From assembly GCA_004193555.1 (NCBI GenBank), contig RPGP01000029.1:328976-392975 (forward strand): a stretch of 64,000 nt of DNA, given 5' to 3'. Shown here piece by piece: positions 5,312 to 51,240 of this stretch. Made by a program: the position numbers and the translations under genes. The notes under the pieces were generated by a model, which had not been told where the DNA came from, did no database searches, and was given only the letters and a program-made list of their open reading frames with translations. This stretch comes from Desulfobacteraceae bacterium Eth-SRB1 (lineage in GTDB: Bacteria; Desulfobacterota; Desulfobacteria; Desulfobacterales; ETH-SRB1). Position 1 is the stretch's first letter, and the number at the start of each line of letters is the position of its first letter.

Positions 5312-5403
5312 GGGTTTCTCACAGAGCACTCAAAGAACACAGAGGTAACATATTGATATTATTTAAACTAACTTGGCGTTCTTTGCGGCTTTGCGCGAGA
5401 TTT

Positions 5404-20673: not shown

Positions 20674-20782
20674 ACGCAACAACGCAAAATTAATCTTTTT
20701 TCTCACGCAAAGCCGCAAAGACAATCGCTTTCTCCGGCCTCTGACCTCCGATCTCTTTCCCCTTTGCGCCTGGTGAGCCAGA
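20674..20782. repeat. E-type palindrome between paaK copy 2 and the ACT gene
   Basis: The left arm carries CTCACGCAACAACGCAAAA and CTCACGCAAAGCCGCAAAGA. The centre has CTCTGACCTCCGATCTC and the right arm CCTTTGCGCCTGGTGAGCCAG. It is a shorter version of the elements at 23.5 and 25.8 kb. Confidence 0.75.
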
Positions 20783-20803
20783 CATTAATCCCCTAATCCT
20801 ATA

Positions 20804-22105: not shown

Positions 22106-22192
22106 TCAAGTAATCCTCCTTTCCTAATATCTTTTAGACTGTAAAAAAGTGTAACTTTTTTTAAAAAAAATCTCTGTGCGATCTGTGGTAAG

Positions 22193-22348
22193 GGTTCGCT
22201 CAAAAATAAATCGGCAATTTTAAGTGTTGAGGCGCCTGGCTGGCAAGGCGCGAAAGCGCAGGAATATCGGGCATATTCCGAGATTTCGCAACGCAGCCAG
22301 ACGGGATGCATCGGCGCTTAAAATGTTAAGTTATTTTTGAGCGAGTCC
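22193..22348. mobile_element. MITE-like long palindrome upstream of paaK copy 2
   Basis: GGTTCGCTCAAAAATAA (22193-22209) pairs with TTATTTTTGAGCGAGTCC (22331-22348), with further paired blocks inside (GGCAATTTTAAG with CTTAAAATG; CTGGCTGGC with GCAGCCAG). The centre is GGAATATCGGGCATATTCC. The word TAAG occurs immediately outside both ends (22189-22192 and 22349-22352), like a 4-bp target duplication. It shares its inner words TGGCAAGGC and TATTCCGAG with the element at 45.4 kb. It has no coding capacity. Confidence 0.65.
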
Positions 22349-22360
22349 TAAGTTTTTTAT

Positions 22361-23436: not shown

Positions 23437-23454
23437 GATAATCTCCCAAAATAC

Positions 23455-23739
23455 CTCACGCAGAGGCGCTAAGGCGCTAAGATGTTAAAACTATAACCCA
23501 TTTACAACCCTTGAAATACTTTCCTATATCCATATATATTTCACCACTTGCTTTTCTGTCCTCCGACTTCTGCCCTCTAACCTCTGTTTCTTCTGCTCTT
23601 CCCATTCAATATTCGATGTCGGAGTCTGCGCTTACCTGAACGTTCGACCTGCCGCGACAGTGCGCGAGCACGGCGGGTGTTCGACGTTCATCTCTTTTCT
23701 TTCCTCTACCCCCTATCTTTGCGCCTTTGCGTGAGCCAG
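23455..23739. repeat. E-type long composite palindrome, copy 1 flanking the amidase gene
   Basis: This roughly 285-bp non-coding block begins CTCACGCAGAGGCGCTAAGG and ends CCTTTGCGTGAGCCAG, so its ends are inverted arms. Inside it carries TTTCACCACTTGCTTTTCTG, CTCCGACTTCTGCCCTCT and D-type words. The block at 25750-26005, on the other side of the amidase gene, is nearly the same sequence in the same orientation, apart from an extra GC-rich hairpin (GCGACAGTGCGCGAGCACGG) present only here. It fills the 308-bp gap 23437-23744. Confidence 0.9.
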
Positions 23740-25724: not shown

Positions 25725-25749
25725 AATCCCGGTTTATCTCCCTAAATGT

Positions 25750-26005
25750 CTCACGCAAAGGCGCAAAGACGCAAAGATTTTAAAGCTATAACCCATTGAC
25801 AACTCTGGAAATACTTTCCTCTTTCCATATATATTATTTCACCACTTGCTTTTCTGTCCTCCGACTTCTGCCCTCTGACCTCTGTTTCTTCTGCTTTTCC
25901 CATTCAGCATTCGATGTCGGAGTCTGCGCTTACCTGGACGTTCGACGTTCATCTCTTTTCTTTCCTCTATCCCCTTTAGCGTCTTAGCGCCTTTGCGTGA
26001 GCCAG
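25750..26005. repeat. E-type long composite palindrome, copy 2 flanking the amidase gene
   Basis: This block begins CTCACGCAAAGGCGCAAAGA and ends CCTTTGCGTGAGCCAG, with inner words TTTCACCACTTGCTTTTCTG, CTCCGACTTCTGCCCTCT and GATGTCGGAGTCTGCGCTTA shared with copy 1. Together the two blocks form direct repeats around the amidase gene. It fills most of the 292-bp gap 25725-26016. Confidence 0.9.
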
Positions 26006-26016
26006 ACCCTAATCCC

Positions 26017-28990: not shown

Positions 28991-29018
28991 AATAATATAT
29001 CTCCTCTATCATTATTTG

Positions 29019-29169
29019 ATGAAATCGTAAAAAGTCGAATTCATCAGGTGTTACGTGTTAGGTGTTAAGATAGGACATTTAACTGTCATATCAAGCTCTT
29101 AACACTTAACACCTGACACTTAACACAGTTCGTAAAAAGTGGTTTTTGGACTTTTTACGAGACCATCAA
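29019..29169. repeat. B-type composite palindrome upstream of lapA
   Basis: The left end carries TCGTAAAAAGTCGAATTCATC, then GGTGTTACGTGTTAGGTGTT. The core CATTTAACTGTCATATCAAG (29076-29095) is followed by CTTAACACTTAACACCTG, and the element closes with the hairpin TTCGTAAAAAGTGG/GGACTTTTTACGAG. The core is shared, in either orientation, with elements at 35.2, 47.8, 51.2 and 53.9 kb. Confidence 0.85.
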
Positions 29170-32032: not shown

Positions 32033-32036
32033 TTCC

Positions 32037-32175
32037 TCACGCAAAGACGCTAAGATTTTAAAACTATAATACATTAATGACAACCAGAGCATAAAGAATT
32101 CAAATAGCCTAATACCTCAACCCACTAAATCTCTCCGACCTCTGATCTCTTTCCCCTTAGCGCCTTTGCGTGAGC
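32037..32175. repeat. E-type palindrome between the TPR and DUF4292 lipoprotein genes
   Basis: CTCACGCAAAGACGCTAAGA at the left pairs with CTTAGCGCCTTTGCGTGAGC at the right, with TTTTAAAACTATAAT beside the left arm and CTCTCCGACCTCTGATCTC near the right. It is the same family as the blocks around the amidase gene, but without the long middle. Confidence 0.85.
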
Positions 32176-32188
32176 CAACTCTGAACCC

Positions 32189-49188: not shown

Positions 49189-49830
49189 ATGTCCCTTTTA
49201 ATTAACGAAATATTTTACAGCATACAGGGTGAATCTATTCATAATGGTCGTCCCTGCGTATTTGTCAGGCTCACCGGTTGCAATCTAAGATGTTCATACT
49301 GTGACACCAGGTATGCTTATGATAATGGTTCGGAAATGGAAATTGCGGCAATTCTCAATCGTGTTGCAACTTACAATTGTCCCCTTATTGAAATTACAGG
49401 AGGAGAACCGCTGGTCCAGCAAGAGACCCCGGATTTAATATACTGCCTCCTCGAAAAGGGATACGAAGTATTGATAGAAACAAACGGGAGTTTTGATATA
49501 AGTATAGTTGACAACCGATGCATTAAAATAGTTGACATCAAATGCCCGACAAGCGGCGAAAGTGATGAAAATGATCTAAACAATCTTAAAAAACTCGACC
49601 CAAAAGACCAGGTCAAATTTGTTATTGGAAGCCGTGGGGATTATGACTTTGCCATAGAAATCATCAAGTTAATCCGCCCTGAATTTCCAGCAGACCACAT
49701 CCTCTTTTCTCCTGTGTCTGCAAAAATGGAATATGCAAAATTAGCAAAGTGGATACTTGAAGATAATCTAAAGGTCCGACTCCACCTTCAATTGCATAAG
49801 ATAATATGGCCTGATAAACAACGGTGTTAG
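49189..49830 (+). CDS. queE: 7-carboxy-7-deazaguanine synthase
   Basis: A 213-aa radical SAM enzyme contracting CPH4 to CDG in the preQ0/queuosine pathway. The cluster motif GCNLRCSYCDTRYAY (C-x3-C-x2-C) and ITGGEPLVQ are conserved, as is the start INEIFYSIQGE. The stop codon at 49828-49830 is immediately followed by the left arm of an E-type palindrome. queC is the next que gene, beyond the GxxExxY cassette. Confidence 0.95.
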   Translation: MSLLINEIFYSIQGESIHNGRPCVFVRLTGCNLRCSYCDTRYAYDNGSEMEIAAILNRVATYNCPLIEITGGEPLVQQETPDLIYCLLEKGYEVLIETNGSFDISIVDNRCIKIVDIKCPTSGESDENDLNNLKKLDPKDQVKFVIGSRGDYDFAIEIIKLIRPEFPADHILFSPVSAKMEYAKLAKWILEDNLKVRLHLQLHKIIWPDKQRC

Positions 49831-50288
49831 CTCACGCAAAGGCGCAAAGATATAAAACAATATAAAAGAAAATTATGACTGAGAATGAAATTGCAAAGAT
49901 AATTGTTGATGCAGCATTTCACGTTCATAAAAATTTGGGACCAGGGCTTCTCGAAAGCGTTTATGAAGTTATTCTTACACACGAATTGAAGAAGAGAGGG
50001 TTGATGGTTAAACGACAAGTGCCTGTTCCAATTATTTTTGACGAAATAAAATTTGATGAGGCGTTCAGGGCGGATCTGATTGTAGAAGAGAAAGTCATTG
50101 TAGAGCTCAAGTCTGTTGAAAAAGTTAGCCGTGTACACAAAAAGCAGTTGTTGACGTATCTGAGGCTGGCTGACAAAAGGTTGGGATTGTTAATTAATTT
50201 TGGAACTGAGTTAATTCGCGATGGTATCTCAAGAGTCGCTAATGTGTTATAATTTTAAAATCTTGGCGTCTTGGCGCCTTTGCGTGAG
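49831..50288 (+). mobile_element. E-type palindrome carrying a GxxExxY gene, inserted between queE and queC
   Basis: CTCACGCAAAGGCGCAAAGA (49831-49850) and CTTGGCGCCTTTGCGTGAG (50270-50288) are inverted arms enclosing exactly one gene. The right arm, read inward through TTTTAAAATTATAAC (to about 50246), matches the left arm of the empty E block at 25750 over roughly 43 bp. The unit starts directly after the queE stop codon. It looks like a gene-bearing version of the E palindromes found empty elsewhere in the window. Confidence 0.65.
49875..50252 (+). CDS. GxxExxY-type PD-(D/E)XK superfamily protein
   Basis: A 125-aa protein of the GxxExxY family (PDDEXK_3). The naming motif is GPGLLESVYE at residues 22-31. 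The nuclease-like core follows: a strand ending FRADLIVE (Asp), then VIVELKSVEKV with the E-x-K pair, then a helix QLLTYLRLADKRLGLLINFG. The fold belongs to restriction-type nucleases, but no activity has been shown for this family as far as I know. It lies inside inverted E-type repeat arms between queE and queC, unrelated to queuosine synthesis. Confidence 0.88.
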   Translation: MTENEIAKIIVDAAFHVHKNLGPGLLESVYEVILTHELKKRGLMVKRQVPVPIIFDEIKFDEAFRADLIVEEKVIVELKSVEKVSRVHKKQLLTYLRLADKRLGLLINFGTELIRDGISRVANVL

Positions 50289-50321
50289 ATATTTTTTTGA
50301 AAAAAGGATTAATGAAAAAAT

Positions 50322-51029
50322 ATGATTGAAAGAAAAAAGGCTGTCGTCCTGCTTAGCGGCGGTGTCGATTCCGCTACTGTTATGGGAATTGCAAAACATG
50401 AAGGTTTTGAAATACACTGTTTAAGTTTTTTTTATGGACAGCGCCACTCCATTGAACTATCTGCGGCTAAAAGGATAGCCGATACGATCGGTGCGGCAAA
50501 GCATCTGATAACGAATATAGACCTTGCAAATATCGGCCATTCAGCCCTGACTGACAACATAGATGTCCCTAAAAACAGGAACATACGGAATGTTGCAAAA
50601 GAGATACCTGTCACATATGTTCCGGCAAGAAACACCATATTCCTGTCATACGCTCTTGCGCTGGCAGAAGTTATCGGGTCATCCGACATTTTTATCGGTG
50701 TAAACGCTATTGATTACAGCGGATATCCTGACTGCAGGCCTGAATATATCGCCGCTTTTGAACATATGGCAAATCTGGCCACAAAGGCAGGCGTTGAAGG
50801 CATAACAAAAATAAAAATCAGGGCTCCGCTAATCAATATGACTAAAGCGGAAATCATTAAAAAAGGTATTGAACTTGGGGTGGATTATTCGTTAACTCAT
50901 AGCTGCTACGATCCATCTCCAGGCAATCTGGCATGCGGCCGTTGCGATAGCTGTCTTTTGAGAAAACAGGGTTTTAAAGAAGCGGGCATAATGGATCCAA
51001 CAAAATATGGTAACTACTCAGGTGGATAG
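50322..51029 (+). CDS. queC: 7-cyano-7-deazaguanine synthase
   Basis: A 235-aa ATP-pyrophosphatase-type enzyme making preQ0 from CDG and ammonia. The PP-loop [10 protein letters not shown] is at residues 10-19, [14 protein letters not shown] follows, and the zinc cluster is [19 protein letters not shown]. The start ATG at 50322 follows the E palindrome. The last codons (GNYSGG-stop) coincide with an F-type repeat word (GGTAACTACTCAGGTGGATA) that occurs inverted at 61.4 kb. Confidence 0.95.
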
Positions 51030-51078: not shown

Positions 51079-51096
51079 GGTTCACGGTTCACGGTT

Positions 51097-51240
51097 GATG
51101 AATTCGTAAAAATCGAATTTATCAACCGTCAGGTGTTAAGATGAAACATTTAACTGTCATATCAAGCTGTTAACACTTAACACCTGACACTTAACACTGT
51201 TCGTAAAAAGTAGCTTTTCGACTTTTTACGAGGCCATTAA
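51097..51240. repeat. B-type composite palindrome between queC and the purF-like gene
   Basis: GATGAATTCGTAAAAATCG, CAGGTGTTAAGATG, core CATTTAACTGTCATATCAAG (51147-51166), CTTAACACCTGACACTTAA, and the closing hairpin TTCGTAAAAAGTAG/CGACTTTTTACGAGG. It is a full-length B element. Confidence 0.9.

Follow-up and report, generated by a model that had tools for sequence, protein, structure and literature searches.

A predicted GxxExxY nuclease gene enclosed by matching inverted arms between queE and queC: a candidate small selfish DNA element

The question raised by this locus is what a single small gene, closely enclosed by inverted arms, represents when it is found between the host genes queE and queC, and whether gene and arms belong to one element. 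In the stretch of DNA analysed here (64 kb, referred to as the window, from a draft genome of 52 contigs) queE (49189..49830, + strand; matched by the radical SAM family PF04055 and by QueE-family NCBIfam models) and queC (50322..51029, + strand; PF06508, E=4.6e-76) run in the same direction, and a GxxExxY open reading frame (ORF; 49875-50252, + strand) lies between them within 23-nt inverted arms at 49828-49850 and 50269-50291, which are 91% complementary and 418 nt apart. The left arm proper (49831..49850, + strand) consists of the period-8 units CGCAAAGG CGCAAAGA and the right arm (50269..50288, - strand) is its complement, the whole cassette of arm, predicted nuclease gene and inverted arm measuring approximately 460 bp. 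The stop codon of queE ends at 49830 and abuts the left arm, which starts at the next base, 49831. These arms and coordinates, together with the family matches of the gene product given below, bear out the sequence-only reading of this DNA, according to which inverted arms enclose exactly one gene, of the GxxExxY type, in a unit that begins directly after the queE stop and splits queE from queC. A chance origin of the arms was rejected on the basis of the flanking enrichment described below and of their number, as the window holds 10 copies of CTCACGCAAAGGCGC (at most 2 mismatches) where 0.08 would be expected, and the genome 54 of CTCACGCAAAGRCGC (at most 1 mismatch), a reversed control giving 0. 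Neighbouring arms of this kind, here called E-type, that lie no more than 500 bp apart form 16 inward-facing pairs genome-wide, 5 same-direction pairs and no outward-facing pair. E-type arms also occur in same-direction arrays at G000:C40:135343-137902, with a spacing of 73-88 bp, unlike the usual inward pairs.

The enclosed gene specifies a protein of 125 aa which is predicted to be a minimal PD-(D/E)XK nuclease. It matched PF13366 (E=9.7e-42; 142.5 bits as compared to a cut-off of 22) and, as a full-model family match, TIGR04256 (E=4.9e-43; 146.2 bits as compared to a cut-off of 35); these were the only Pfam and NCBIfam matches, no recognised transposase domain being present among them and no Cas4 family being found in either collection at E<=0.001. 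Residues E27, D67, E77-x-K79 and Q91-xxx-Y95 are invariant across 22 aligned homologues, and in a second set of 40 aligned homologues D67, E77 and K79 were invariant in 40/40 and Y95 nearly so. The protein accordingly carries the D ... (D/E)-x-K residues of the PD-(D/E)XK superfamily, from which nuclease activity is predicted, and the family matches and invariant D67, E77 and K79 agree with the sequence-only description of a PD-(D/E)XK-like gene. A pattern of D, E-x-K and Q-xxx-Y marks the Cas4/RecB group. The predicted structure model (pLDDT 94.8) had SSO0001, which we take to be a Cas4, as its top Foldseek match at E=2e-3, with MGME1, AdnA and the LHK and lambda exonucleases below it and no match at E<=0.001, while VIA-align Z-scores were 9.3 for SSO0001 (the best), 6.8 for the Holliday-junction resolvase Hjc, 6.6 for a structure titled Cas4 and 5.8 for the fdxN-element excision factor, values below 8 being such as may reflect merely a common arrangement. 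Sequence searches against solved structures returned none at E<=1 for the protein and one at E=0.63 for its profile, and the Cas4 matches obtained with PADLOC were weak, the best (E=6e-4) covering residues 57-105 only. The dN/dS ratio was 0.06-0.16 in all 15 pairs among 6 window-type genes (NG86 method), and on these estimates the window-type GxxExxY gene is under purifying selection.

If gene and arms belong together, GxxExxY genes elsewhere should be flanked by arms more often than other ORFs, a check that had been proposed from the sequence and whose outcome was positive. Each ORF was given an arm score, defined as the best ungapped inverted repeat between the 300 bp upstream and the 300 bp downstream, with the other ORFs of the same fetched regions serving as controls; ORFs with less than 300 bp of flank were dropped (3/66 GxxExxY ORFs in relatives, 9/78 in named genomes and 1 four-helix ORF), and the enrichment figures exclude L175, L191 and L270, which duplicate other loci. 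The sample from relatives comprised 60 regions, these being the listed stronger GxxExxY matches away from contig ends (approximately 23 further matches of at least 100 bits lie outside the set), and the sample from named genomes comprised the best 80 of 569 GxxExxY loci. At a score of at least 16, arms were found at 27/63 GxxExxY genes in relatives as compared to 19/334 controls (9/211 for controls not adjacent to the target), and in the named genomes (best 80 of 569 loci) at 34/67 as compared to 8/503, or 1/370 for non-adjacent controls (p=8.5e-31). With a score of 12 the figures were 42/63 versus 30/334 for relatives and 47/67 versus 29/503 for the same best 80 of 569 named loci. At a score of at least 16, 36/63 GxxExxY genes in relatives and 33/67 in the named genomes (best 80 of 569 loci) had no arm pair. 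A reading of the arms as a Rho-independent terminator was rejected, since 418 bp separate the arms and the score sets the two flanks of a gene against each other, a result that a terminator does not give.

This architecture is widespread. The 52 named loci with arms (from the best 80 of 569) fall under 15 phylum labels, taken by hand from record titles, one of which is 'unclassified bacterium', and among loci found via window-like proteins the window-type arms themselves are recognisable in a Nostoc, an Akkermansia-labelled bin, a Planctomycetota bin and a Flavobacterium. A search for inverted repeats of score 18 spaced 200-800 bp apart gave 119 pairs; a GxxExxY gene lies within 58 of them, a four-helix-bundle gene within 25, some other ORF of at least 89 aa within 10 and none of these within 26. 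The regions had been chosen for the first two families and therefore provide a biased census. GxxExxY genes scoring over the family cut-off are present in 39/58 relatives and four-helix-bundle genes in 47/58, often in several copies each. Genes of the two families were often seen within a few kb of one another (L092, L100, L105, L116 and L117).

The arms differ between GxxExxY genes, and they do so in step with the protein. Four of the 6 GxxExxY genes in this genome (5 intact, 1 broken) are situated inside inverted repeats of three different sequences, while no arms were found at 2 of the 5 intact genes or at 3 weak partial matches. The sequence-only reading has to be corrected in that CACGCAAAG arms are one type of several, and other GxxExxY paralogues in the genome carry others. 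At a score of at least 16 the left and right arms of one locus matched each other in 67/138 cases, as compared to 43/1104 for arms taken from different loci, a far better fit which implies that both arms change together. Arm similarity correlated with protein similarity (Spearman 0.335 for n=92 distinct gene-arm sets; the maximum of 500 permutations was 0.20), and in the named genomes (best 80 of 569 loci) the correlation was 0.19 overall, a value reached by 6/1000 permutations, and 0.20 for pairs from different phyla, reached by 4/1000; such a correlation could reflect plain co-inheritance of gene and arms. Autocorrelation of 93 GxxExxY arms peaked at lag 8. In enrichment, in arm-arm covariation and in arm-protein correlation, comparative analysis thus shows that gene and arms go together. 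A four-helix-bundle gene at L272:6453-6825 is enclosed by arms resembling the GxxExxY type, and the arm code is thus not strictly tied to protein family.

The window also contains palindromes that hold no intact gene, reported in the sequence-only reading as empty arms at 20.7, 23.5, 25.8 and 32.0 kb. Three of these stood, at 23.45-23.74, 25.75-26.00 and 32.03-32.18 kb (elements 23453..23737, 25731..26016 and 32034..32176, all + strand), while that at 20.7 kb (20702..20785, + strand) has a good left arm and, by eye, a weak, degenerate right arm; what is probably another degenerate palindrome, its right arm of the E type, was seen by eye at 5318..5400 (- strand). The reported match of about 43 bp between the right arm of the cassette and the copy at 25.75 kb is real and extends into the gene, such that this 'empty' copy retains the 3' end of a GxxExxY gene. 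The same 3' end is kept in the 23.5-kb palindrome, 227/248 aligned bases of which are identical to the 25.7-kb copy in differing flanks; both remnants read ESISRVVNGL-stop on the minus strand, next to the left arm, and the window gene ends in DGISRVANVL-stop. Elsewhere in the genome the pair at C40:418870 keeps both gene ends, and C29:304648 keeps a whole but broken GxxExxY gene. Fifteen pairs were studied, these being the 16 inward-facing pairs minus C29:239052; among the 10 gene-free pairs that could be tested for a remnant, 3 scored above all 300 shuffles against the gene and 7 did not, 3 more being too short. The 32.0-kb palindrome is one of the 7, and its link to a cassette rests on orthology with the sister genome. 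The reading of the gene-free palindromes as targets or offspring of the enzyme needs correction in part; to judge from the remnants and the sister orthology, at least some of them are evidently full cassettes which have lost the gene by internal deletion. Each of two gene-free families is present in three dispersed copies, near-identical in one and more diverged in the other, and since these copies have approximately 10 bases in common beyond the arms, copying of the gene-free forms themselves is suggested.

Several other repeats were observed in the same part of the genome. A segment of about 75 bp within the 23.5-kb palindrome (23638-23713) has many other matches at 88-97% in the sister genome, elements thus being nested in elements, and a multicopy nested palindrome at 29013-29165, whose ends are CGTAAAAAGTCG and whose inner arms are of the AGGTGTTAAG type, is missing from the corresponding site of the sister genome, where many copies at 70-92% exist elsewhere. 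By eye, another palindrome with the ends of the 29.0-kb element lies downstream of queC (51090-51240), and a repeat of about 165 bp at 22187-22353, with four copies at approximately 90% in the sister genome, appears unrelated to the E arms.

Comparison with this sister genome (G001), which is of the same genus as the window genome, established that gene and arms can part company. The 32.0-kb site, gene-free here, holds an intact GxxExxY cassette in the sister, and at queE-queC the situation is the opposite, with an intact gene in the window and the same arms, empty, in the sister; these reciprocal states imply gene loss inside the arms in both directions. At 25.7 kb the sister lacks the whole element, which in the window is bounded by 6-bp AATCCC direct repeats. 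This element is therefore present or absent as a unit, and either a gain here or a loss in the sister could account for it, while the AATCCC repeat, coming from the one vacant E-type site examined closely, may not be a true target duplication. The possibility that a queE-gene-queC order is conserved without the arms was likewise checked in 13 genomes of the family and was not borne out, the sister carrying only the arms at this place and most of the other genomes a different sequence, so that the sequence-only reading withstood both of the refutation checks proposed with it. The queE-queC spacer (L255-L267) has a repeat array of some kind in most of these 13 genomes, often a differing one, and by eye appears to be a hot spot; in G004 it apparently contains a broken four-helix-bundle gene.

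Such a hot spot would be expected if the GxxExxY protein served a host or defence function, for example in repair or in the trimming of ends, as with Cas4, and such genes simply landed and survived at palindromic hot spots. The weak PADLOC matches to Cas4, the closeness of the fold to SSO0001 and the presence of a titled Cas4 among the structural matches are in agreement with that explanation, which we nonetheless consider unlikely, as the two arms of a locus vary together and follow the protein even between phyla, some copies of the cassette are broken or internally deleted, and arms flank GxxExxY genes far more often than the neighbouring genes of the same regions.

The cassette gene also seems to have moved between genera. 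Between the window gene and its counterpart in G007, a member of another genus, dS was 0.31 (0.24 for a second copy), as compared to 1.79 for queC and 1.26 for queE, and a dS so far below that of the host genes strongly suggests that the gene was transferred between the lineages of the window genome and G007 after the genera split. G007 was alone in its low dS among the three genomes whose genes were set against that of the window; for G011 and G014 the values (1.28 and 1.12) are like those of host genes and require no transfer. Carriage by phages or plasmids was rejected, as 0/50,697 phage records and 8/72,556 plasmid records matched at E<=1e-5.

Interspersed palindromes of bacteria are well known from the REP elements, and it might be supposed that those described here are REP-like and owe their spread to a Y1 (RAYT-type) transposase encoded elsewhere in the genome, with the GxxExxY gene as a passenger. 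The genome does contain 14 Y1_Tnp matches, 13 of them over the family cut-off, and PMC3733652 states that long terminal inverted repeats with no relation to the GTAG repeats may also flank RAYT genes. GTAG or CTAC is, however, found at the foot of 0/15 arm pairs, and an E-type arm pair at 0/14 Y1 loci within about 1.5 kb on either side, where a single E-type word with one mismatch was found at 3 loci and a word of another type at 1. A Y1-driven origin moreover leaves the arm-protein correlation across phyla unexplained. With neither tag nor enzyme found together with the arms this candidate was rejected, and we hold it to be very improbable.

A second family follows the same plan. Four-helix-bundle (PF05635) genes have 16 matches in this genome, 9 of them with inverted repeats of score at least 12, and in relatives, for which 40 regions were fetched from a longer list, arms at a score of at least 16 flank 22/39 four-helix-bundle ORFs as compared to 5/209 controls. 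Their arms repeat at period 7, and arm and protein similarity correlate at 0.19, a value reached by 2/1000 permutations. The four-helix-bundle genes therefore appear, from these comparisons, to be a second lineage of the same architecture built on an unrelated protein. Read on the gene strand, 32 four-helix arm pairs contain 41 G.U as compared to 17 A.C mismatches (p=0.002). According to PMC4990558 the 23S rRNA intervening sequence of Coxiella ends in inverted repeats, is excised by RNase III and contains an S23 ORF preceded by tandem heptamers, and the S23 protein is suggested not to be made in vivo.

The mismatch bias and the Coxiella precedent, as well as the placement of the cassette between two genes of the same direction, lend themselves to an alternative in which the arms act at the RNA level, RNase III removing the long stem from the transcript as in the 23S rRNA intervening sequences so that the insert is more or less harmless, and the DNA moving by other means. 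The GxxExxY arms do not have this bias (42 G.U versus 58 A.C mismatches, p=0.13), and RNA-level selection on them was rejected owing to the absence of a G.U excess; the bias of the four-helix arms could stem from transcription-linked cytosine deamination, and in the Rfam scan of the window only a tRNA reached gathering score. We regard action at the RNA level as an improbable explanation of the cassette.

The explanation that we prefer, and to which we attach modest confidence as the probable one, is that arms and gene together make up a palindromic cassette, one copy of a small selfish DNA element in which a nuclease drives the spread of its cognate arms and gene-free copies are moved in trans. 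The arms of tandem units would fold into a hairpin or cruciform, and the GxxExxY protein, as a minimal Cas4/RecB-like nuclease, would recognise its cognate arms and cut or trim the folded DNA, upon which host repair would copy the palindrome, with or without the gene, into new intergenic sites; gene-free copies would then be MITE-like passengers, moved in trans. The sequence-only reading had drawn an analogy to REP elements and their RAYT transposases, and its anatomical part is upheld in that there are cognate arms, gene-free derivatives and a copy present in one sister and absent from the other. Its second part, that the protein processes or spreads the palindromes, is a matter of inference, as arm number is only weakly tied to the gene: the 6 genomes of the family with an E-type gene have 54, 8, 16, 4, 22 and 9 E-type arm hits and the 11 others 2, 6, 7, 14, 0, 18, 5, 6, 13, 0 and 2 (p=0.03, in a test that is partly circular because E-type status was judged from the gene's own arms). 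G008 has 18 E-type arm hits and no GxxExxY match, which together with the weakness of the tie argues against a simple trans model. Outside the family, some genomes also have many E-type hits (23 in G043, 19 in G027).

A broader and more tentative proposal, which we consider possible and rather short of probable, is that the element is part of a superclass of palindromic single-gene cassettes. Each lineage of these would combine hairpin arms of 7- or 8-bp tandem units, with an arm code of its own, and a tiny protein, either a Cas4-like nuclease or a four-helix bundle, with no classical transposase; some of the interspersed palindromes found in environmental bacteria would derive from the superclass, and the 23S rRNA intervening sequences would be a branch which landed in rRNA. 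We know of no assigned role for GxxExxY or four-helix-bundle proteins outside rRNA inserts and diversity-generating elements. In a literature search covering mostly sources other than subscription journals and preprints, no description of such cassettes was found by title or abstract start among the matches listed, and the arm sequences, 'PDDEXK_3', and the combination of 'four helix bundle protein', 'inverted repeats' and 'intergenic' were without match in that scope. The findings point to an apparently undescribed kind of selfish DNA element in many bacterial phyla. The arm-protein pairing provides a directly testable role, that of a nuclease with its cognate hairpin, and if the proposal is true it would account for where some of the interspersed palindromes in environmental bacteria come from, place the 23S rRNA intervening sequences within a family of related elements, and add to the mobile systems a possible one that relies on a PD-(D/E)XK nuclease of 125 residues.

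Among known systems, the REP/RAYT pairs (REPtrons, REPINs) resemble the cassettes in having interspersed palindromes, a cognate gene for a DNA-processing enzyme and gene-free copies that outnumber the gene copies, as well as, for some RAYT genes, the long terminal inverted repeats noted above (PMC3733652). They differ in that RAYT is an HUH tyrosine transposase and the enzyme of the cassette is of the PD-(D/E)XK type, and in that the cassette arms lack the GTAG tag (0/15 pairs) and are period-8 tandem units set close round the gene and differing between paralogues. The 23S rRNA intervening sequences likewise hold one small gene within terminal inverted repeats, with tandem heptamers before the ORF (PMC4990558) to which the period-7 arms of four-helix genes outside rRNA may be compared; the cassette protein is, however, unrelated to theirs, the insertion is between the protein genes queE and queC and not in 23S rRNA, the GxxExxY arms give no sign of RNA-strand selection, and purifying selection on the GxxExxY gene contrasts with an S23 protein suggested, in the Coxiella account, not to be made in vivo. 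With transposons bounded by terminal inverted repeats and their MITEs the cassettes share a gene between such repeats, internally deleted gene-free copies and presence or absence at orthologous sites; unlike these, they have no transposase domain in Pfam or NCBIfam and their terminal repeats differ among the paralogues of one genome, a possible target duplication being the 6-bp AATCCC at the one vacant E-type site examined closely. Finally, Cas4 carries an iron-sulphur cluster, whereas the cassette protein is a single domain of 125 aa with zero cysteines, although it resembles the Cas4/RecB nucleases in predicted fold and in the motifs D, E-x-K and Q-xxx-Y.
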